The notes beneath the pieces were generated by a model. The model was given only the letters and a program-made list of their open reading frames with translations. It made no database searches and was not told the origin of the DNA. From Pseudomonadota bacterium (GTDB taxonomy: Bacteria > Pseudomonadota > Gammaproteobacteria > Burkholderiales > JABEVD01), in contig JAJZTT010000012.1 in NCBI GenBank assembly GCA_021848705.1, positions 1 to 32,658 on the forward strand: a stretch of 32,658 nucleotides of DNA, read 5' to 3'. A program made the position numbers and the translations under genes. Shown piece by piece: positions 6,867 to 32,307 of the stretch; the stretch's first letter is position 1; every line of letters begins with the position of its first letter.

Positions 6867-7682
6867 TTACAGGAGCGCCTTCACCCTGCGCGCTGCAAGC
6901 CTGTCGAACGCGACGATTGCGATGCTTTTCCTGCCTTCTTCCAGCCAGCCTCGTACCGCGATTTCCGCCCTTTCCGCAGCTTCCTCCAGCCCGTTGGCAC
7001 CGAAAAGGGAAAAATTCGCTTCGAAAGGGGGAGCGGATTCCGCCCTCGTCTTGAGATCAGGGGCTTCCCCCTCCGGCCAAACCGATTCGAGAAAGGGGGG
7101 ATGGCACTCGTGAAGCACCATGACCCGATCCGACCAGGATTCGAGGAATTCCGTTTCGGCCGGATTGAGCGGATCTGGCGCGAGCACGTAAAGAGGCCCG
7201 GGGGCATTCCTTGCGATCCTCGAAAGTTCCATCCGGCTCGCAGCGATCCTTCCCGGCCCTTCGGACTCCATGACATGCCAAAGTTCATGCACGAGATGCG
7301 CTTCGAACATCATCGCGTCCCCTGCCTTCGCCTTGTACGCTCGCTCGAGTTCCGAGTAAAAATCCGCGAGATCCTCGGGAAGGCGCACCTTCCAGCGGGT
7401 CATTTCCTCGAAAAGCGCCACCAACTCGCGGCTGATTCTCCAAAGGTCCTCTTCGCGAAACCATTTTCTTTCCTTGAGCGCAAGGTGCACCCTGGTCGCG
7501 GCAAGGCTGGAAGGAAGGAATTCATCAGGATTCGCCAGGGAATCGAAGGTGTGCATTCCCGGAAGCAGCAAGAAGGGATGTCCGGAGGCTTCCTTCAGCT
7601 CCCTGGACAACCCGGATGCGGCATGCAGGTCGGGCAGCAGCACCGTGACCCTGGAAAGATCGCTTCCCGTGTTTTCGGACAC
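6867..7682 (-). CDS. addB: AddB-like protein, N-terminal part (ends at an in-frame TAA)
   Basis: This is the N-terminal part of the AddB-like subunit, with SRVTVLLPDLHAASGLSREL near its start and a degenerate helicase-like region ending AIVAFDRLAARRVKALL. It stops at TAA (6869-6867). Reading through gives ALL-*-RSGILVEDETGW without a change of frame, and AddB-like relatives as I recall them carry a glutamate or similar residue here, so a single G-to-T change (GAA to TAA) would explain the break. The start is uncertain. The GTG at 7682 is used here, but the frame stays open upstream with protein-like sequence (ALHSGRFLADAAGIIV) back towards fdxA, so translation may begin earlier from a non-ATG codon. 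It lies 64 bp downstream of fdxA on the same strand. Confidence 0.72.
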   Translation of the reverse strand: MSENTGSDLSRVTVLLPDLHAASGLSRELKEASGHPFLLLPGMHTFDSLANPDEFLPSSLAATRVHLALKERKWFREEDLWRISRELVALFEEMTRWKVRLPEDLADFYSELERAYKAKAGDAMMFEAHLVHELWHVMESEGPGRIAASRMELSRIARNAPGPLYVLAPDPLNPAETEFLESWSDRVMVLHECHPPFLESVWPEGEAPDLKTRAESAPPFEANFSLFGANGLEEAAERAEIAVRGWLEEGRKSIAIVAFDRLAARRVKALL

Positions 7683-22689: not shown

Positions 22690-23145
22690 ATGACACCAGG
22701 CGAACTGCTTTACATACTCAGAAACCTTCCGGCAGAGACGCCGATGACGGTCGAAGAAGTAGTCAACCTTCTCTCCTCGCTACAACCCTCCAAAACTGAG
22801 CCGGATCATCAAGAGGCATACAGCACATGGGACAACGACAAGCTCATCGACACGAAAACACTCGCCGCCCGGATCGGGGAACGACCGGAATTACTTTCAA
22901 GATGGAGAGTTGAAGGGAAAGGACCTAAATACATTTCCAAGCCAAGGTATGTCAGCTACAGGGTCGGCGACGTCAGGAAATGGCTCATCTCGCGAACGGT
23001 TCAACCGACCACCGAAGCCGATCATAAATTGGCGGCAACGCAAATTTCAAAGCATTCTCCAGGAAAATGGAAGCCCGATACAAATCTCATTAACCGACTC
23101 CATACCCTGTCAATGTTGACTGTCCCGGTCATGTCCAAAGCATGA
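22690..23145 (+). CDS. Excisionase/AlpA-like helix-turn-helix protein
   Basis: The product has 151 residues and belongs to no family I can name with certainty. The middle part, LIDTKTLAARIGERPELLSRWRVEGKGPKYISKPRYVSYRVGDVRKWLISR, has the layout of MerR-like HTH_17/excisionase domains: a helix-turn-helix, then a short wing with R-Y/V-x-Y-R and a final D-V-R-K-W-L helix. The N-terminal 55 residues look like a separate helical region, and the C-terminal 45 are unstructured in appearance. The ribosome-binding site is weak. As the first island gene, 161 bp from the tRNA, it sits where a recombination directionality factor or regulator of integration is often found. It could equally be a regulator of the R-M operon, which starts 25 bp downstream. 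Confidence 0.65.
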   Translation: MTPGELLYILRNLPAETPMTVEEVVNLLSSLQPSKTEPDHQEAYSTWDNDKLIDTKTLAARIGERPELLSRWRVEGKGPKYISKPRYVSYRVGDVRKWLISRTVQPTTEADHKLAATQISKHSPGKWKPDTNLINRLHTLSMLTVPVMSKA

Positions 23146-23170: not shown

Positions 23171-25951
23171 ATGCCGAACGAACAGGACGCCAGGGGGAAT
23201 ATAGACAGGCAGCTTATTGCTGCGGGATGGGTCGTGTGTGACGCTGCGAAAGCGAACATCCATGCCTCGAAGGGCGTCGCCATCCGCGAATTCCCCCTGA
23301 AGAATGGTCACGGCTTCGCGGACTATCTTTTCTATCTGGACGGCAAGGCTGCCGGCGTGATCGAGGCGAAAAAGGAAGGCGTCACGCTTTCCGGGGTCGA
23401 AAACCAGTCGGACAAATACACCAAGGGGCTCCCCGACGGGTTGCCGAAATGGCACAATCCGCTCCCCTTTTCCTACCAGTCGACAGGTGCCGAGACCCGC
23501 TTCACGAACGGCATGGATCCCGAGCCGAGATCGAGAAGGGTTTTCTCCTTTCACAGGCCGGAAGTCCTCGCCGAGCTTCTTGAGAAGAAGAATTTTCTCG
23601 AAAATCTCCGGAGCATGCCCAAGCTTGTTACAGAAGGACTCTGGCCCGCCCAGATCCGGGCGATAGAAAATCTCGAAGGTTCGCTGCGGCAAAACAGGCC
23701 CCGCGCCTTGATCCAGATGGCGACCGGCTCCGGAAAAACCTTCACTTCCATCTCGTTCATCTACCGACTGATCAAGTTCGCAGGGGCAAGAAGAATCCTG
23801 TTCCTCGTGGACAGGGGAAACCTCGCAGACCAGACCTTGAAGGAATTCCAGCAGTATTCCTCCCCCTGCAACAATTACAAGTTCACCGAGGAATTCATCG
23901 TCCAGCGGCTCCAGGGCAACACGATAGACACGACGGCGCGGGTCTGTATCTGCACCATCCAGCGCATGTATTCCATGCTGAGGGGCAGGGAGCTCGATCC
24001 TGATCTGGAGGAAGAGTCCATCGACGGGATCGGCAGCCTGTTCAGGCAGCAGGAACCCATCGAATACAATCCGGACATCCCCATCGAGACATTCGACATC
24101 ATCGTCACCGACGAATGCCACCGCTCCATCTACAATCTCTGGGCACAGGTGCTGGAATATTTCGACGCCTACCTCGTCGGCCTCACTGCGACCCCATCGA
24201 AGCAGACATTCGGCTTCTTCAACCGGAACCTCGTGATGGAATACAACCACGAGATGGCCGTGGCGGACGGAGTGAACGTCAACTACGACGTCTACCGGAT
24301 CCGCACCGAGATCACGGAAAAAGGCTCCAAAGTCGAGGCGGGTTTTTCCGTGCAGATCCAGGAGCGCGACACCAGGAAAAAACGCTGGGAGCAACTCGAC
24401 GACGATTTTTCATATGACCCGAACCAGCTCGACCGCGATGTCGTGACCCCTGACCAGATCAGGAAGATCATCCAGACTTACCGCGACAAATTGTTCTCCG
24501 AAATCTTCCCCGGAAGGACGTGGGTGCCCAAGACCCTCATTTTCGCCAAGGACGACGCCCATGCGGAAAACATCGTGGAAATAGTGCGCGAAGTTTTCGA
24601 CAAGGGCAACGACTTCGCCCAGAAGATCACCTACCGAACGACAGGTGCCAGGCCGAAGGATCTCATCAACGAATTCAGGACCAGTCCAATGCCGAGGATT
24701 GCCGTGACCGTCGACATGATCGCCACCGGCACGGACATCAAGGCGGTCGAAGTCGTCATGTTCATGAGGGCGGTGAAATCGAGGGCCTTCTTCGAGCAGA
24801 TGAAGGGAAGAGGCGTCAGGGTGATTTCAAATGACGATCTCCAGAGCGTCACCCCCGATGCGGCATCCAAGGATCATTTCGTCATCGTTGACGCGGTGGG
24901 GGTTTGCGAGCAGGACAAGACCGATTCGCGCCCCATGGAAAGCAAGCCCACGGTGAGCTTCGAAAAACTCATGCAGGCCGTCGCTTTCGGCAATACGGAG
25001 GACGATGTGCTCACCTCTCTGGCGGGAAGGCTTGCCCGGATGGAGCATCGCATGAGCGCTGATGACGACAAGAAAATCCGCGCCATCTCCGGGGGCTTGA
25101 GCATCAAGGATTTGAGCCACGACATCATCGCAGCGTTGAATCCAGACCGTCATATCGAAGAGGCCAAGGCAGATCTGGGCATCCCTCCTGGAGACGACAC
25201 GCCGATTCCGGATGCGGCGCTCGAAGCTGCACGGCAGAAGATCATCATTGAGGCGGTCAAGCCCTTGCACGATCCGGCCTTGCGCGAACTCATCATCGAT
25301 ACCAAAAAGAAGAACGAAGTCGTCATCGACATCGTGAGTTCGGACGAAGTGCTGGAAGCGGGCTTTTCGCAGGATGCGGTCGACCGGGCAAAGGGAATGG
25401 TGAAATCCTTCGAGGAATTCCTGGAAAAGAACAGGGACGAAATCACCGCCCTCCAGGTGCTCTACGGCAAACCCTACAAACATCGGCTATCCTTCGAATC
25501 GGTGAAGGAACTCGCCGACAGGATCGAGGCGCCGCCCTACCTCTGGAACGAGTCGCAGCTCTGGAACGCCTATGCCGCGCTGGAAAAATCGAAGGTCAAA
25601 GGGGCCTCCGGCAAACGCATTCTCACCGACCTCGTTTCCCTGGTGCGTTTCGCGATCCACCAGGAAAACGAGTTGATTCCCTTCCCCGAGAAAGTGGATG
25701 CGAACTTCAGGGCGTGGCTGGCAAGCTTGCCTGCGCCCGAAGGGCAGTCAGGTCGGATGCCTTTCACGCCTGAACAAATGCACTGGCTGGAAATGATCCG
25801 CGACCACATTGCGGCGAACCTCGGAATCGAGCCGGAAGATTTCGAATACGCGCCCTTCTCGCAGCAGGGCGGACTGGGCCGCGTGCATCAGCTTTTCGGC
25901 GAAAAGCTGAATGACATCATCGAAGAATTGAACGAAAGTTTGGCGGCATGA
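23171..25951 (+). CDS. hsdR: Type I restriction enzyme R subunit (EcoEI-like)
   Basis: This is the ATP-dependent translocase/endonuclease subunit of a type I R-M complex; it needs HsdM and HsdS to recognise DNA and cuts unmodified DNA. TTGAGGC precedes the ATG. The N-terminal nuclease has GHGFADYLFYLDGKAAGVIEAKKEG (PD-(D/E)XK, residues about 43-68). Helicase motifs are QMATGSGKTFTS (Walker A), DIIVTDECHRS (DECH box) and GLTATP, followed by motif VI FEQMKGRGVRVI. The C-terminus FTPEQMHWLEMIRDHIAANLGIEPEDFEYAPF matches the EcoEI R C-terminal domain, pointing to a type IB-like system. At 926 residues the length is reasonable for this subgroup. The stop overlaps hsdS as ATGA. Confidence 0.95.
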   Translation: MPNEQDARGNIDRQLIAAGWVVCDAAKANIHASKGVAIREFPLKNGHGFADYLFYLDGKAAGVIEAKKEGVTLSGVENQSDKYTKGLPDGLPKWHNPLPFSYQSTGAETRFTNGMDPEPRSRRVFSFHRPEVLAELLEKKNFLENLRSMPKLVTEGLWPAQIRAIENLEGSLRQNRPRALIQMATGSGKTFTSISFIYRLIKFAGARRILFLVDRGNLADQTLKEFQQYSSPCNNYKFTEEFIVQRLQGNTIDTTARVCICTIQRMYSMLRGRELDPDLEEESIDGIGSLFRQQEPIEYNPDIPIETFDIIVTDECHRSIYNLWAQVLEYFDAYLVGLTATPSKQTFGFFNRNLVMEYNHEMAVADGVNVNYDVYRIRTEITEKGSKVEAGFSVQIQERDTRKKRWEQLDDDFSYDPNQLDRDVVTPDQIRKIIQTYRDKLFSEIFPGRTWVPKTLIFAKDDAHAENIVEIVREVFDKGNDFAQKITYRTTGARPKDLINEFRTSPMPRIAVTVDMIATGTDIKAVEVVMFMRAVKSRAFFEQMKGRGVRVISNDDLQSVTPDAASKDHFVIVDAVGVCEQDKTDSRPMESKPTVSFEKLMQAVAFGNTEDDVLTSLAGRLARMEHRMSADDDKKIRAISGGLSIKDLSHDIIAALNPDRHIEEAKADLGIPPGDDTPIPDAALEAARQKIIIEAVKPLHDPALRELIIDTKKKNEVVIDIVSSDEVLEAGFSQDAVDRAKGMVKSFEEFLEKNRDEITALQVLYGKPYKHRLSFESVKELADRIEAPPYLWNESQLWNAYAALEKSKVKGASGKRILTDLVSLVRFAIHQENELIPFPEKVDANFRAWLASLPAPEGQSGRMPFTPEQMHWLEMIRDHIAANLGIEPEDFEYAPFSQQGGLGRVHQLFGEKLNDIIEELNESLAA

Positions 25952-27381
25952 GCGTAGTTAGAGAAAGTCATGGAATCCCTGAAACCTGGCAACTGGTACC
26001 ACTGAAAGAACTCGGTGTGTGGTCGGGCGGAGGCACTCCGTCAAAAGCCAAACCGGAGTTCTGGTCGAACGGCTCCATTCCTTGGGTTTCACCCAAGGAT
26101 ATGAAGACGGACCACATTACCGACAGTGAGGATCACATCACCTGGGCTGCTGTTGAAGGTTCAGCAACTAAGTTGATTCCAGCAGGCTCAGTGCTGCTCG
26201 TTACTCGAAGCGGAATTCTGAGTCACACACTTCCCGTAGCGATTACCACCATTCCGGTGACGGTCAACCAGGATTTGAAGACAATCACGCCAAAAGTTGG
26301 AGTTTTGCCCGAGTATGTGGCATGGGCGCTTCGTTGTTTTGCTCGCGAGGTACTGAATACCTGCTCAAAGCAGGGGACCACAGTTGCTAGTATCGAGACG
26401 ACGGCCCTACATCGTTTCGAGATTCCAGTCGCCCCCCTCGACCAGCAAAAACTCATCGTCGAAGAAATCGAAAAGCAGTTCTCTCGCCTCGACGAAGCCG
26501 TCGCCAACCTGAAGCGCGTCAAGGCCAACCTCAAACGTTACAGGGCGTCCGTCCTGAAAGCCGCAGTTGAAGGCCGCCTCGTTGAACTTGAGGCCGAACT
26601 CGCCCGCCGTGAAGGCTGTAGTTATGAGACAGGCGAACAGCTCCTTCAACGTATCCTCATCGAGCGCCGTGAAAAATGGTCCGGCCGCGGAAAATACAAG
26701 GAACCCGCCGCGCCCGATATATCCAATTTGCCCGAATTGCCCGAGGGGTGGGTGTGGGCAACCTATGAACAAGTCAGTCGTCTACAATTGGGACGCCAAC
26801 GTGCACCGAAGTATCATTCAGGTCCGAATATGCGCCCGTATCTTCGGGTCCAGAATGTATTTGAGGACCGGATCGACCTCTCCGATGTGATGGAAATGGA
26901 TTTTCCGCCCGATGATTTTGCGAAGTATCAACTTAACCCAGGCGATCTGCTCCTAAACGAGGGCCAAAGTCCCGAACTTTTGGGGCGCCCAGCAATATAT
27001 CGCGGTGAATTGCCCGGTAGTTGTTTCACAAATACGCTAATTCGATTCCAAGCGATTGAGGGTATCAGAGTGGAATTTGCCCTTTTGGTTAGCAGAAACA
27101 ATATGCACGCAGGGCGCTTTGTTGATGAAGGCACGATTACAACAAATATTGCACACTTGAGCATAGGCAGGCTTGCAAAAGTTGAGTTTCCTCTGCCGCC
27201 TTTTGCCGAGCAACTCCGCATCGTCGCCGAGGTCGACTGCCGCCTCTCACTTCTACGCGAAACCGAAGCACAGGTGGACGCCAATCTCAAGCGCGCCGAA
27301 AAACTCAAGCAGGCCATCCTGAGTCGCGCATTTTCCGGAGGGCTTGTTCCGGGAGGAGAAATTCGGGAAGGCGCTGCCTGA
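25948..27381 (+). CDS. hsdS: Type I restriction-modification specificity subunit S
   Basis: HsdS recognises the bipartite DNA target for both methylation and cleavage. The 477 residues show the two-repeat design. TRD1 covers about residues 5-160 (IPETWQLVPLKELGVWSGGGTPSKAKPEFW). The central conserved helices are PVAPLDQQKLIVEEIEKQFSRLDEAVANLKRVKANLKRYRASVLKAAVEGRL. TRD2 covers about residues 265-420 (LPEGWVWATYEQVSRLQLGRQRAPKYH), followed by distal helices PLPPFAEQLRIVAEVDCRLSLLRETEAQVDANLKRAEKLKQAILSRAFSGGL. It overlaps hsdR by ATGA. The TRD stretches look more AT-rich than the conserved helices, as expected for exchanged specificity segments. The target sequence cannot be read from this. 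Confidence 0.93.
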   Translation: MSVVRESHGIPETWQLVPLKELGVWSGGGTPSKAKPEFWSNGSIPWVSPKDMKTDHITDSEDHITWAAVEGSATKLIPAGSVLLVTRSGILSHTLPVAITTIPVTVNQDLKTITPKVGVLPEYVAWALRCFAREVLNTCSKQGTTVASIETTALHRFEIPVAPLDQQKLIVEEIEKQFSRLDEAVANLKRVKANLKRYRASVLKAAVEGRLVELEAELARREGCSYETGEQLLQRILIERREKWSGRGKYKEPAAPDISNLPELPEGWVWATYEQVSRLQLGRQRAPKYHSGPNMRPYLRVQNVFEDRIDLSDVMEMDFPPDDFAKYQLNPGDLLLNEGQSPELLGRPAIYRGELPGSCFTNTLIRFQAIEGIRVEFALLVSRNNMHAGRFVDEGTITTNIAHLSIGRLAKVEFPLPPFAEQLRIVAEVDCRLSLLRETEAQVDANLKRAEKLKQAILSRAFSGGLVPGGEIREGAA

Positions 27382-27383
27382 CC

Positions 27384-28112
27384 TTGGAAATCGTCGAAAT
27401 ACTGGGGCGTTCGCAACAGGGAATCACCAAACCCTTCATCTGCCGGGCAGAGGATGGCCTTGTCTATTTCGTCAAGGGGCCTGGTGGCGGTGCGCGTAGC
27501 CTGATCTGCGAATGGATTGCGGGCCAGTTGGGCCGTATGCTGGGACTTCCCATCGCGCCTTTCGTGATCGTCGAAATTCCGCAAGAATTGCTGACTTTTG
27601 CCATGAGGAATGATCTGTCCGAACTGGGAACGGGCAAGGCGTTTGGATCGCGCAAAATGGCTGTAGTCGAATTGTCTGCATCTCATGTCGATTATGTGCC
27701 GGAAGAAACGCGGAGAGATGTGCTGGCTTTCGATTGGTGGGTGCGCAACGGTGACCGTACTCTCGGCGAAGCCGGCGGAAATCCCAACCTGTTTTGGGAT
27801 GTCGAATCTGATGGTCTTGTGGTCTTGGACCATAATCAGGCTTTCGACAGGGAATTTTCGGCAGAAGCTTTTGCCGCTACCCATGCTTTTCGGGATCAAT
27901 TCGGCACGATTTCCGGGGACTGGATTTTGCAGCAAGAGTACCGGAGCCGCTTCGAAAATGTGATGACAGCCTGGCAATCGATCTGCGATACTGTCCCACC
28001 CGACTGGTGGTTTGTCGATGTGGAAAGAACGGTGCCGACCGATTTCAACCTTGATGAAACGCATCAAATGCTGCTGCGCTGCCTGGCCGACGGGTTCTGG
28101 AGTTTGAGATGA
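27384..28112 (+). CDS. HipA-like kinase domain protein (HipA_2 type)
   Basis: This 242-residue protein has a minimal HipA/PI3K-like kinase core. It starts at TTG, two bases after the hsdS stop. Visible are KPFICRAEDGLVYFVKG (Lys31 as the likely ATP lysine), SLICEWIAGQLGRMLGLPIAPF, AFDWWVRNGDRTLGEAGGNPNLFWD (catalytic Asp124 in NGDR, Asn near 133-135) and LVVLDHNQAFD (Asp149, metal-binding). The spacing fits the HipA-like kinases listed in Pfam as HipA_2, which are about half the length of true HipA and lack its N-terminal subdomain. No HipB-like antitoxin is adjacent; the partner is instead the DUF3037 gene, overlapping by ATGA. The substrate is unknown, and a defence or toxin role is an inference. 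Confidence 0.8.
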   Translation: MEIVEILGRSQQGITKPFICRAEDGLVYFVKGPGGGARSLICEWIAGQLGRMLGLPIAPFVIVEIPQELLTFAMRNDLSELGTGKAFGSRKMAVVELSASHVDYVPEETRRDVLAFDWWVRNGDRTLGEAGGNPNLFWDVESDGLVVLDHNQAFDREFSAEAFAATHAFRDQFGTISGDWILQQEYRSRFENVMTAWQSICDTVPPDWWFVDVERTVPTDFNLDETHQMLLRCLADGFWSLR

Positions 28113-28951
28113 GAAGGATTCCCTGCCTTTATTCGATTGTACGTTTTGCCCCTTTCGTGGAAACGGGCGAGTTCGCCAACGTGGGCGTGATCATGATCGC
28201 CCCTGAGCAACGGTTTTTCGAATTCAGACTTCTCATTCAGCGTCATTCGCGGATCACCCATTTCTTCGAGCAACTGGACGCCGGGGTCTACAAAGCCACG
28301 ATGCGCAATCTCGAGGAGGAATTGAACCGGGTGGCGGGTGTGCTGCGCCGCCATGGTTTCGACAAGCGGCTCAAGGCAAACGATGTCGAGTTCGCCAAAA
28401 ACCTGTTTGCCGAAGTCATTCGTCCCAGGGAGACCATCATCAAGTTTGGCGAGCCAAGGGTTGTTTTGACTGAAGACATGAAAGCGACCTTGGAAGAGCT
28501 TTATGGCTTTTATGTGGAGCGCAATTTCGCGACCCGCGAATATCAGGAAGCGGTGCTGGAGCGGGGAATGCGGAAATGGCTGAGTCAGGCCGGAATCATC
28601 GAGCGTTTTACCCGCCAGGATATCGGCGACGAGGAGTACCATGTCGCATTTCCTTTCGTGGAACGCAGTGAACTGAACCCGGTGAAGGCGATCAAGCCTT
28701 TGCATCTGGCGCATGATCAGCCCAGCAAGATTCTCGATCATGGGGGGCAATGGCTCTTCCGCCTGGAACAGCTCAAGCGCCGCAAGCAACTGCCGGGGAA
28801 GATCCTGATTGCGGTCAGGGGGCCAGACGAAGATGGGGCAAGAGAGCGCGCTTACAAGGAAATCTTCGACAGCCTGGAAAACTCCGGAGTCACCGTGCTT
28901 CCCTACGCCGACAGGGAGCAAATTCTCGACTTTGCGTCGAAAGCGGCCTGA
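28109..28951 (+). CDS. DUF3037 family protein
   Basis: This 280-residue cytoplasmic protein starts in an ATGA overlap with the HipA-like kinase. The opening MRRIPCLYSIVRFAPFVETGEFANVGVIMIAPEQRFFEFRL is the DUF3037 signature: an SIVRF strand, then E-F-x-N-V-G-V. The middle is charged and helical, and the C-terminal 100 or so residues (GQWLFRLEQLKRRKQLPGKILIAVRGPDEDGARERAYKEIFDSLENSGVTVLPYADREQILDFA) form an alternating strand-helix pattern. The biochemical function of DUF3037 is unknown to me, but I recall it being frequently encoded next to HipA_2 kinases, so it is probably the functional partner (antitoxin, substrate or sensor). The end of the gene abuts a truncated AlbA_2-type fragment. Confidence 0.78.
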   Translation: MRRIPCLYSIVRFAPFVETGEFANVGVIMIAPEQRFFEFRLLIQRHSRITHFFEQLDAGVYKATMRNLEEELNRVAGVLRRHGFDKRLKANDVEFAKNLFAEVIRPRETIIKFGEPRVVLTEDMKATLEELYGFYVERNFATREYQEAVLERGMRKWLSQAGIIERFTRQDIGDEEYHVAFPFVERSELNPVKAIKPLHLAHDQPSKILDHGGQWLFRLEQLKRRKQLPGKILIAVRGPDEDGARERAYKEIFDSLENSGVTVLPYADREQILDFASKAA

Positions 28952-29382
28952 TCTTCCTCTGCTGGCTTGAAAAGGCCGGCGGACATGGCCGGGGAACTCG
29001 CTACCGCTGGCCCAAGGGAGGCATTGGGGATTTGTTCGAAGGTGACGTCGATGAGGTTGAAAGCTCCGAACATAACGGCGAAAGCTCCGAACATAACGGC
29101 GAAAGCTCCGAACATTCGGAGGCCGAACAACAATTGCTGGCCATCGCTGCACCGATCAGGGAAAAAGCGAGGGTTACCAGGGCATCGATGGAAGAGGCGA
29201 TCCTTGCGCTATGTTCAAATGACTGGCGAACGATGCGAACATTGGCCGAACTCCTCGGAAGGGAGTCGGATTCCCTGCGCAACCATTACATCAACCCTAT
29301 GCTGAGAGACGGCCGTCTGGTTGCCCGGGTGCCCGGCAATCCGAACCATCCAAATCAAGCCTACAAAACGAAACCGGAATGA
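28948..29382 (+). pseudogene. C-terminal remnant of an AlbA_2-type (RNA/ATP-binding) protein
   Basis: From the DUF3037 stop onwards the frame reads LIFLCWLEKAGGHGRGTRYRWPKGG, then three ESSEH repeats, then LLAIAAPIREKARVTRASMEEAILALCSNDWRTMRTLAELLGRESDSLRNHYINPMLRDGRLVARVPGNPNHPNQAYKTK. This is the winged-helix tail of AlbA_2/Schlafen-type ATP-binding proteins, which often sit in type I R-M loci. The N-terminal AlbA_2 and ATP-binding regions are missing, and there is no convincing start codon: upstream codons in this frame are a shadow of DUF3037, and only CTG or TTG are available. It is most likely a fragment left when the HipA-like/DUF3037 pair replaced the 5' part. It could be expressed as a small DNA-binding protein from a TTG. 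Confidence 0.6.
29059..29121 (+). repeat. Three tandem 21-bp repeats (ESSEH heptads)
   Basis: GAAAGCTCCGAACATAACGGC occurs twice exactly and a third time with a changed end (ATTCGGAG). It encodes ESSEHNG-ESSEHNG-ESSEHSE. As I recall, similar SSEH repeats are a hallmark of the linker in AlbA_2-type proteins, so this is coding rather than CRISPR-like. Confidence 0.9.
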
Positions 29383-29487
29383 ACGCATCCAACATCGTCC
29401 AAATTTCCGGAATCTTCTGCCACGCCGGTTCTTTCCGCAATGCGCGTTTCGCGGAAATTCGTGATTCCTGAATTGTGAATACCTTAT

Positions 29488-29509
29488 TTCGCTATTCGCG
29501 AATAGCGAA
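29488..29509. promoter_or_regulatory. 22-bp perfect palindrome, probable operator
   Basis: TTCGCTATTCG-CGAATAGCGAA is a perfect 22-bp palindrome five bases upstream of a -35 hexamer. A second partial copy of the core (TATCGCGAATA) lies at about 29548-29557, near the predicted transcription start. The layout suggests autoregulation by the winged-helix protein encoded next. Confidence 0.7.
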
Positions 29510-29513
29510 TATG

Positions 29514-29542
29514 TTGAATAATCAATTATCAAGTGTTATTCT
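29514..29542 (+). promoter_or_regulatory. Predicted promoter of the winged-helix/nucleotidyltransferase pair
   Basis: TTGAAT (-35), 17 bp and TATTCT (-10) in AT-rich DNA lie 32 bases before the chosen ATG. The 22-bp palindrome flanks it upstream and a CGCGAATA half-site flanks it downstream. This internal promoter would let the pair and hsdM be expressed without hsdR. Confidence 0.55.
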
Positions 29543-29574
29543 TATATATCGCGAATACACATGAAGTCCATGTC

Positions 29575-30108
29575 ATGCGCCGTGCCGTCAACAAACAACC
29601 CGTCCTCAAGGCGCAGGATTTTTACCTGCTGCTGGCGCTGCTCGCCCGTCGGGGCGAAGCGATGTCATATCCTGAGCTGGCCGCTTTTTCCGGGCTTTCG
29701 ATATCCGAGGTGCATGGTGCGCTGAAACGCGCCGAGCAGGCGCGGTTGCTGGCGTTTGTCGACAAGCAGCCGAGCGTCATCATCCCTGCGTTCAGGGATT
29801 TTTTGCTTTATGGGGCGCGCTATGCTTTTCCCGCATTGCGCGGCTCGATGGTGGGCGGTGTGCCCACGGCCTATGCGGCTGCGCCGCTCAATGCCCTGAT
29901 TGCGCCGTCGGCCGATCCGGTTCCCGTATGGCCGTATGCGGAAGGCAGTGTGCGGGGCATTGCGTTGATACCGCTTTATCCCAGCGCGCCGGCGGCAGCG
30001 CTACGAAGCCCTGCGTTGTATGAAAATCTGGCGTTGTTTGATGCCTTGCGCGTGGGCAATGCGCGCGAGCGTAACTTTGCCGAGAAACTGTTCAAGGAGC
30101 GGTTGTGA
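29575..30108 (+). CDS. Winged-helix-like protein paired with a nucleotidyltransferase
   Basis: The start is the ATG at 29575 (MRRAVNKQPVLKAQDFYLLLALLARRGEAMSYPELAAFSGLSISEVHGALKRAEQARLLAF), 177 residues; the ORF-track ATG 14 codons earlier lies within the promoter. Residues about 10-60 form a winged helix-turn-helix of MarR/Lrp-like layout. The remainder (DFLLYGARYAFPALRGSMVGGVPTAYAAAPL... NAREREFAEKLF-like ending) has no assignment from me. The stop overlaps the GTG start of the nucleotidyltransferase gene. The pair resembles in plan the AbiEi/AbiEii type (wHTH antitoxin-repressor plus nucleotidyltransferase toxin), though the C-terminal part is not recognisably AbiEi. Codon use is richer in T and TTG than in hsdR and hsdM, suggesting a separate origin. 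Confidence 0.72.
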   Translation: MRRAVNKQPVLKAQDFYLLLALLARRGEAMSYPELAAFSGLSISEVHGALKRAEQARLLAFVDKQPSVIIPAFRDFLLYGARYAFPALRGSMVGGVPTAYAAAPLNALIAPSADPVPVWPYAEGSVRGIALIPLYPSAPAAALRSPALYENLALFDALRVGNARERNFAEKLFKERL

Positions 30109-30815
30109 ATCCGCGCGACCCCAATATCCAGTTGCTGGAGGTTGTGGCGCATGCGTTGGATGAATTGTGCGAAGAACTGCTGTTTGTGGGCGGATGTGCG
30201 GTCGGCTTGTTGTGCACTTCGCCGAGTGCTGCACCTGCCCGTGTGACGTATGACGTGGATGTAGTGGCAGAGGTGCTTGCGTTATCGGCTTACCATGCGC
30301 TGGAGGAAAAATTCGCGGCACGCGGTTTTGTTCGCGATATGTCGCTGGATGCGCCTATCTGCCGCTGGCGTTTTGGTGAACTGGAAGTTGATCTGATGCC
30401 GACGGACGAACGGGTACTGGGTTTTGCCAACCGTTGGTATCCCCTGGCGAATAAGAGTGCTGCGCGCATGAAGCTTCCGAGCGGCAGGCAGATCAGGCTT
30501 ATTTCCGCCCCGGCGTTTTTGGCGACCAAGCTGGAGGCATTTGCCACGCGCGGTCATGGCGATATGATGTCCAGCCATGATTTCGAGGACATCATCAATA
30601 TTCTGGATGGGCGCCCGGAAATCGTGGATGAAGTGGCCCTTGCGGGGGGAGAACTGGCGGAGTATCTGGTGACCTGTTTTGGCGACATCGCACGCCATCG
30701 CGATTTTGAAAATACCTTGCCGGGACTGATTGAATTTGATGAGTTATATGAAGAAAGAGTGTGGCGGGTGCGTGAACGGATCAATGCAATTACAAGGATA
30801 AGAAATAATGAATAG
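30105..30815 (+). CDS. Polymerase-beta-fold nucleotidyltransferase (AbiEii-like)
   Basis: This 236-residue protein starts at a GTG overlapping the upstream stop. The nucleotidyltransferase core is readable: LLFVGGCAVGLL (GG at 29-30), TYDVDVVAE (Asp50 and Asp52 as the DxD metal pair) and GELEVDLMPTD (Asp96 as the third carboxylate). Next comes SAPAFLATKLEAFATRGHGDMMSSHDFEDIINILDGR, which matches the lysine/helix region of AbiEii-type enzymes. The family transfers nucleotides to RNA, tRNA or protein; AbiEii/MenT members act as toxins controlled by a wHTH partner. Here the partner would be the preceding gene. The 3' end overlaps hsdM by 8 bp. All catalytic residues appear intact. Confidence 0.8.
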   Translation: MNPRDPNIQLLEVVAHALDELCEELLFVGGCAVGLLCTSPSAAPARVTYDVDVVAEVLALSAYHALEEKFAARGFVRDMSLDAPICRWRFGELEVDLMPTDERVLGFANRWYPLANKSAARMKLPSGRQIRLISAPAFLATKLEAFATRGHGDMMSSHDFEDIINILDGRPEIVDEVALAGGELAEYLVTCFGDIARHRDFENTLPGLIEFDELYEERVWRVRERINAITRIRNNE

Positions 30816-32307
30816 CGCCAGCATCGTCCAGAAACTCTGGAATTACTGCAACGTGCTGAGGGACGACGGCATGTCCTACGGCGACTACGTCGAACAGCTC
30901 ACCTATCTGCTTTTCCTCAAGATGGCGGACGAGCGCACCAGGGCGCCCTACAACCAGAAGAGCCCTGTCCCGGAAGGATATGACTGGCAGAACCTGATCA
31001 AAAAGGACGGGGACGAGCTTTTCGACCATTACCGCCACACGCTCGAAGCGCTCGGGAGGGAAAAGGGGCTGCTCGGGCTGATCTTCGGAAAATCGCAGAA
31101 CAAATTCCAGGACCCCGCGAAGCTCAGGAGGCTCGTCGTCGACCTCATCGACAGGGAACAGTGGGTTTCGATGAGCTCCGACGTGAAGGGGGATGCCTAC
31201 GAAGGGCTGCTGGAAAAGAACGCGCAGGACACCAAGTCCGGCGCAGGTCAATATTTCACGCCTCGCGCCCTGATCCAGGCAATCGTCGACGTGGTGAATC
31301 CCAAGCCGGGCGAGACGGTATCGGATCCCGCCTGCGGAACGGGAGGATTCCTGCTTTCCGCTCACGATCATGTGGTGAAACACAATCCGAATTTGACCCG
31401 CGACCAGCGCAAGAAGCTCAAGGAGGAAAGCTTCAAGGGATGGGAACTGGTTCAGGCGACCGCGAGGCTTTGCGCGATGAACATGCTGTTGCACGGCATC
31501 GGCAGCCAGGAATTCGAACCCATCGTCGTCGGCGATTCCCTCGGAGCGGATCCGGGCGACCGGTTCGATATCGTGCTCACCAACCCGCCTTTCGGCAAGA
31601 AGAGCAGCACCACCATCGTCGGCGAGGAAGGACGGGCGACGAAGGAGCGCGACATCGTCGAGCGTGGCGATTTCTGGACCACCACTTCGAACAAGCAGCT
31701 CAACTTCGTCCAGCACGTCAAGACGCTTTTGAAGCAGAACGGCAAGGCGGCAGTCGTCGTTCCCGACAATGTGCTCTTCGAGGGCGGCGCGGGCGAGACC
31801 ATCCGCAGAAAGCTCCTCCAGGAATGCGATGTCCACACCCTTCTGCGCCTGCCCACCGGCCTATTCTATGCGCAGGGCGTGAAGGCGAACGTCATCTTCT
31901 TCGAAAAGAAGCCGGCAAGCGAAGCTCCCTGGACGAAAAAACTCTGGATTTATGACCTCCGGACCAACATGCACTTCACGTTGAAAACCAATCCATTGAA
32001 GCGCGAGGATCTGGACGAATTCGTAAATTGCTACCATCCGGAAAATCGTCATGATCGGAAGGCCACATGGTCGGAGCAGAATCCGGAAGGAAGGTGGCGT
32101 TCATACGACTACGAGGATCTGGTCGCGCGGGACAAGGCCAGCCTCGACATCTTCTGGCTGAAGGACGAGTCGCTTTCGGACTCAGACAACCTTCCCGCCC
32201 CCGACGTGATCGCCCAGGAAATCGTCGAAGACCTCGAAGCTGCGCTGGAACAATTCAGGGAAATTCTTTCCGATTTGAGCCCGCAGTCAATGCAGGATGA
32301 AACATGA
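30808..32307 (+). CDS. hsdM: Type I restriction-modification DNA methyltransferase subunit M
   Basis: HsdM is the N6-adenine methyltransferase of the type I complex; two copies with one HsdS methylate the target, and HsdR joins for restriction. The 499 residues start MNSASIVQKLWNYCNVLRDDGMSYGDYVEQLTYLLFLKMADERT, the HsdM N-terminal helical domain. GAGQYFTPRALIQAIVDVV precedes the SAM motif DPACGTGGFLLSAHDH, and the catalytic motif is NPPFGKK. The C-terminus is helical (LPAPDVIAQEIVEDLEAALEQFREILSDL). It lies about 3.4 kb downstream of hsdS rather than beside it. Its ATG is inside the nucleotidyltransferase gene (8-bp overlap), and its stop overlaps a small ORF as ATGA. Confidence 0.95.
   Translation: MNSASIVQKLWNYCNVLRDDGMSYGDYVEQLTYLLFLKMADERTRAPYNQKSPVPEGYDWQNLIKKDGDELFDHYRHTLEALGREKGLLGLIFGKSQNKFQDPAKLRRLVVDLIDREQWVSMSSDVKGDAYEGLLEKNAQDTKSGAGQYFTPRALIQAIVDVVNPKPGETVSDPACGTGGFLLSAHDHVVKHNPNLTRDQRKKLKEESFKGWELVQATARLCAMNMLLHGIGSQEFEPIVVGDSLGADPGDRFDIVLTNPPFGKKSSTTIVGEEGRATKERDIVERGDFWTTTSNKQLNFVQHVKTLLKQNGKAAVVVPDNVLFEGGAGETIRRKLLQECDVHTLLRLPTGLFYAQGVKANVIFFEKKPASEAPWTKKLWIYDLRTNMHFTLKTNPLKREDLDEFVNCYHPENRHDRKATWSEQNPEGRWRSYDYEDLVARDKASLDIFWLKDESLSDSDNLPAPDVIAQEIVEDLEAALEQFREILSDLSPQSMQDET

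Follow-up and report, generated by a model that had tools for sequence, protein, structure and literature searches.

Among the systems closest to the one described here, the DUF1814 nucleotidyltransferases carry motifs I–IV (hG[G/S]..R...DhD, K...R, +DxxD), and motif III takes the form KLxAaxxR in COG4849 (PMC3985639). In AbiE, the operator is made up of two repeats of 23 bp with 3 bp between them (PMC3985639). In MenAT1 from M. tuberculosis, the phosphoacceptor of MenT1 is T39, and the partner protein, MenA1, is small and without a winged helix (PMC11375011). RptR, which binds TAGCTA direct repeats, is an earlier example of a small repressor that acts on restriction-modification (R-M) islands (PMC12255303).

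The two genes considered here, A and B, lie in a 32,658-nucleotide stretch of DNA (the window, i.e., the whole stretch that was analysed) in the order hsdR, hsdS, HipA_2 kinase, DUF3037, remnant open reading frame (ORF), A, B, and hsdM (Table 1), and they form a member of an already catalogued PADLOC candidate, PDC-M21. Both proteins match the corresponding models over most of their length (E 2e-35 for A against PDC-M21A; E 6.8e-66 for B against PDC-M21B), and the genes are adjacent and in the same order, with A first. PDC-M21 is a database candidate only and is not named in any paper of the literature searched; the operator family, the HepT/MntA link, and the hsdM junction, none of which was found in that literature, are additions of the present analysis. 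The sequences themselves show that A and B go together, how the operator is built, that the catalytic motifs are intact, that both genes are under purifying selection, that B is lost one-sidedly, and that hsdM can directly follow the pair. A-B is probably an autorepressed toxin-antitoxin-like unit whose regulator/antitoxin belongs to a new family, and in this locus it would feed into hsdM.

The reading frames of A and B overlap, as had been noted in an earlier reading made from the sequence alone (the sequence-only reading); the overlap is 4 bp (GTGA, 30105-30108), and the ATG of hsdM lies inside the 3′ end of B, with an 8-bp overlap. The start of A at ATG 29575 is backed by all relatives, and an upstream start near 29533 is unsupported. 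The HipA_2/DUF3037 pair, candidate PDC-M66, is cargo sitting between hsdS and A-B; it has been reported elsewhere in place of a retron effector (PMC12548924). The ORF at 28951-29382, just upstream of A-B, is a remnant with a weak Fic-like C-terminal match and a triplicated 21-bp stretch (∼29060-29120), and probably represents what is left of the 3′ portion of a cargo gene. Upstream of hsdR, an ORF at 22690-23145 (151 aa) has no Pfam match and resembles, by eye, a small DNA-binding protein.

Table 1. Features of the A-B locus, with coordinates in the window.
Feature	Coordinates	Strand	Description
hsdR	23171-25951	+	Type I R-M locus; Pfam for the hsdR/hsdS stretch: ResIII, EcoEI_R_C, Methylase_S
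hsdS	25948-27381	+	Same type I R-M locus as hsdR; Pfam
HipA_2-like kinase and DUF3037 pair	27384-28951	+	Pfam HipA_2 1.8e-87, DUF3037 1.3e-26; PADLOC candidate PDC-M66A/B
Second, imperfect operator-like site	29457-29480	none	24 bp, ATTCGTGATTCCTGAATTGTGAAT; 6 bp upstream of the main operator
Main operator (putative)	29487-29510	none	Four half-sites, TTTCG-CT-ATTCG/CGAAT-AG-CGAAT; includes the palindrome 29488-29509
Putative promoter	29514-29542	+	TTGAAT-N17-TATTCT; aligned by eye with the place where relatives have their better promoter
Degenerate O1 operator copy	29540-29563	none	Architecture score 7
Gene A	29575-30108	+	177 aa; winged helix ∼residues 12-70, conserved unannotated C-terminal domain ∼81-177
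Gene B	30105-30815	+	236 aa, nucleotidyltransferase; PADLOC model PDC-M21B
hsdM	30808-32307	+	Type I methyltransferase; Pfam N6_Mtase 3e-75

By its sequence, B is a divergent DUF1814 (AbiEii/MenT/COG4849) enzyme. The nucleotidyltransferase core recognized in the sequence-only reading is intact (G29G30...R46-x-T48-x-D50-V-D52...D96), and further motifs are present at 142-149 (KLEAFATR) and 158-162 (HDFED); B thereby has DUF1814 motifs I–III, with KLEAFATR fitting the COG4849 form of motif III, and a motif IV with His for Lys/Arg and a longer spacing (19). Twelve residues are invariant in 63 relatives of B, specifically G29, G30, R46, T48, D50, D52, D96, K142, A145, R149, D159, and D162, and T48 stands at the position of MenT1 T39. 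Against Pfam AbiEii (PF08843), B of the window scored 17 bits, below the 22.5 cut-off, and 38 of the 63 relatives matched at E ≤0.01, the best at 2.4e-7. The B profile scored 98.6 (hhalign) against nucleotidyltransferases encoded beside AbiEi_2 genes versus 87.5 against ordinary AbiEii proteins, and the predicted structure (pLDDT 96.9) found its best solved fold in MenT1 (8an5; E 2.9e-6, TM 0.5-0.6). The earlier assignment of B to AbiEii/MenT-like nucleotidyltransferases, a group with known toxins that block tRNA, was thus borne out by Pfam matches in the relatives, profile comparison, and fold.

The winged helix proposed for A was recovered as weak Pfam matches to MarR_2 and IclR HTH and is of the MarR/IclR type. 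The C-terminal half proved as unlike known domains as had been suggested, matching no Pfam family and no solved fold; structure prediction gave a confident model of A (pLDDT 94.8), which had zero matches at E ≤0.001 among PDB and viral models. Among relatives, G95, W119, G128, P133, and R159 of this domain are invariant, and its conservation is slightly above that of the DNA-binding part. The comparison with AbiEi-type antitoxins did not hold: A has no AbiEi Pfam match, AbiEi is absent from the Pfam families listed for 69 relatives of A, and the C-terminal domain has no detectable relation to AbiEi_2 (PF09952, which we take to be COG4861), its score of 17.7 lying beside 17.8 for the best shuffled control. 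Because A falls outside the AbiEi families, “type IV” is not inferable from homology, and the label “type IV-like” is in that respect unsupported.

The perfect 22-bp palindrome TTCGCTATTCGCGAATAGCGAA at 29488-29509 is real and very unlikely to be a chance occurrence; the assembly searched contains its core a single time. Scored for architecture (palindrome plus repeat, maximum 22), the main operator reached 20 and ranked first among all 24-mers of the 32.7-kb window, and the imperfect site upstream of it reached 17 and ranked second. Relatives carry upstream of A a site of the same kind, 24 bp long and built of a half-site, two bases, and a half-site, followed by the mirror image (for example, TTTCG-CA-TTTCG/CGAAA-CA-CGAAA). 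The letters of the half-sites vary widely among subgroups (TTTCG, ATTCT, TATTCC, GTTTCC, GTCCTC), with the geometry constant. A score ≥16 was found within ∼150 bp of A in 126 of 136 loci, in ∼0.6% of shuffled upstream regions, and in 19 of 1,493 control windows from the same loci (∼1%), at least one of which lay just upstream of an A gene. This recurring four-half-site architecture beside A supports the earlier proposal that the palindrome is an operator-type site, and points to the operator at its own promoter that an autorepressed toxin-antitoxin operon would possess. With ≤2 mismatches allowed, few genomes have the pattern of the window operator, each carrying it about once, and every copy examined lay next to an A gene, including an A of 49-54% identity; a dispersed repeat was ruled out on these grounds. 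In five loci (L002, L024, L031, L032, and L036), a further palindrome with the same geometry and other letters (ATATGCTGTTTGCATACAGCATAT type) lies ∼120 bp upstream of A; it is similar to the operators seen in other A subgroups (L058, L067) and may be a leftover from an earlier unit or serve a different A.

In most relatives, the O1 copy overlaps the −10 box and the start of transcription (score ≥15 near the start in 128 relatives); with the window's copy degenerate, regulation at this locus may be weak or otherwise arranged. The promoter, described earlier as near-ideal, is judged by its bases to be ordinary: the sole placement aligning with the relatives, TTGAAT (29514)-N17-TATTCT (29537), scores 8 of 12 consensus bases, a promoter scan requiring ≥9 of 12 reported none at 29514-29542, and many relatives have a clearly better promoter, TTGACA-N17-TACTTT. 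Operator divergence tracks A divergence (r ∼0.6), with partial r values of 0.22 for the recognition helix and 0.34 for the C-terminal domain; as the operator co-diverges with the whole of A and not with the helix in particular, A is a candidate binder. Covariation specific to the recognition helix was suggestive by eye, is confounded by ancestry, and is therefore not claimed.

The sequence-only reading had also regarded the R-M island as the host of the unit. This does not apply as a general home: 119 neighbouring proteins were scanned, four of which were type I methylases and most of the others housekeeping, so R-M is not the usual home of A-B, and the regular association expected of a type I R-M controller was not found. 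The link does stand for the window and 11 other loci (L008, L015, L018, L026, L030, L033, L046, L060, L061, L084, and L144), in which the start of hsdM falls between −8 and +7 bp from the stop codon of B and HsdM is 62-100% identical to that of the window. Locus L015 has a truncated 5′ part of hsdM ahead of A and an entire hsdM behind B, as expected if A-B-hsdM were acquired as a block; the two hsdM 5′ copies flanking the pair (7260-7367; 8693 onward) are clearly diverged from each other. This junction, the apparent movement as a block, and the example of RptR are what would be expected if A-B were a regulatory part of type I R-M, with A controlling hsdM in the manner of RptR or C proteins and B modifying an R-M component or tuning its activity instead of acting as an independent toxin; however, hsdM gave no match at that position in 116 of the 137 loci where B was matched, the scanned neighbours are mostly housekeeping genes, and the pair also occurs on plasmids (115 plasmid records carry B) and in viral contigs (four with B relatives), all of which makes this explanation unlikely. 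A collection of phage records contained no homologue of A or of B.

A lies directly upstream of B in the loci read, and in a class sample of 369 genomes B was present in 29, all among the 43 genomes with A, leaving 14 with A and without B. Both genes are under purifying selection, as estimated from their sequences (Ka/Ks ∼0.08 for A and ∼0.12 for B). Across all loci there were 95 intact pairs, 15 with intact A and broken B, and none with broken A and intact B, the order of loss expected of an autorepressed operon in which the toxin goes before the antitoxin. Errors of assembly may account for some of the frameshifts in B. When the count was restricted to loci retrieved with B as the bait, a search that works against finding broken B, it was seven to zero in the same direction (p ∼0.02 by gene length).

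Eleven loci with A and without B were read: three hold remnants of B, three hold a fusion of A with an MntA-type nucleotidyltransferase, followed by a gene for HepT (L103, L106, and L110; Pfam), and the rest hold A alone, one of them broken. HepT and MntA are a known type of toxin and antitoxin. The operator geometry of A precedes two of the three fusions (scores 19 and 17; the third, 14), and the occurrence of solitary A genes indicates that A has a life without B. Both the one-sided loss and the fusion of A to the antitoxin of HepT argue against a non-toxic B, acting for example on a small molecule or drug and controlled by a ligand-sensing A with its C-terminal domain as the sensor. The MarR/IclR-like winged helix, the slightly better conservation of the C-terminal domain, and the presence of ANT(2'') among the fold matches of B would all suit such a pair, but MenT1 matches B better than ANT(2'') does, and the DUF1814 toxin motifs III and IV are present, and we regard this alternative as decidedly unlikely. 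It is very improbable that the unit in the window is a decaying relic, its promoter operator already lost and its genes kept only because hsdM lies behind them, as the degenerate O1 position and the remnant ORF just upstream might suggest, given that A and B are both full length with all family-invariant residues and that the two best operator-type sites are still present.

As an autorepressed toxin-antitoxin-like unit, A-B would operate through binding of A to the four-half-site operator, probably as two dimers on interleaved half-sites, a stoichiometry suggested by half-site geometry, keeping the A-B promoter low. Excess B would most likely add nucleotides to an RNA, for example at the acceptor end of tRNA, and stop growth. 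Transcriptional repression would be the minimum by which A restrains B, with a possible further restraint at the protein level through the conserved C-terminal domain of A; a role of the unit in phage defence is conceivable. In the window, the transcript probably continues into hsdM, in which case A would also set expression of the methyltransferase.

The kind of system, a nucleotidyltransferase toxin with a winged-helix regulator, is ordinary, and the variant is clearly distinct. If the toxin-antitoxin-like reading is true, it would add to the widespread nucleotidyltransferase toxin systems an antitoxin/regulator family whose C-terminal domain matches no solved fold. A broader proposal is possible and decidedly more tentative, namely that A represents a new portable antitoxin/regulator family with a geometry-constant, drifting operator, joined to two unrelated effectors (the AbiEii/MenT-like nucleotidyltransferase, and HepT via the MntA fusion) and controlling hsdM from a toxin-antitoxin promoter in some type I R-M loci; DNA methylation would then depend on the state of the toxin unit. 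With an operator this regular, binding and change of specificity are directly testable in dozens of natural pairs. A concrete question raised by the hsdM junction is whether the repressor of a toxin-antitoxin unit governs the methylation half of a restriction system; the junction also bears on why toxin-antitoxin units are embedded in restriction loci.

Compared with described systems, A resembles RptR as a small repressor beside a type I R-M system in which toxin-antitoxin cargo is embedded, and differs from it in the binding site. HEPN-MNT (HepT-MntA) systems are approached through the three relatives with an A-MntA fusion and HepT, two of them with the same operator architecture, but the window pair lacks HepT, and its nucleotidyltransferase, B, is the presumed toxin and not the antitoxin. 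B has its closest solved fold in MenT1, whose Ser/Thr phosphoacceptor position is kept in B as the invariant T48, whereas MenA1 differs from A in its small size and lack of a winged helix, and sequence identity between MenT1 and B is ∼20%. Likeness to COG4861-COG4849 extends to motif and profile only, motif III of B fitting the COG4849 form and its profile lying closer to this group than to AbiEii, whereas A is without the long N-terminal part and the relation of its C-terminal domain is not above shuffled controls. With AbiE, A-B shares an upstream winged-helix regulator, a downstream DUF1814 nucleotidyltransferase with motifs I–III and a variant of IV, and inverted-repeat sites at the promoter; it differs in that A belongs to no AbiEi Pfam family, B of the window falls below the AbiEii cut-off, and the operator, in place of two spaced repeats, is a compact 24-bp palindrome of four half-sites.
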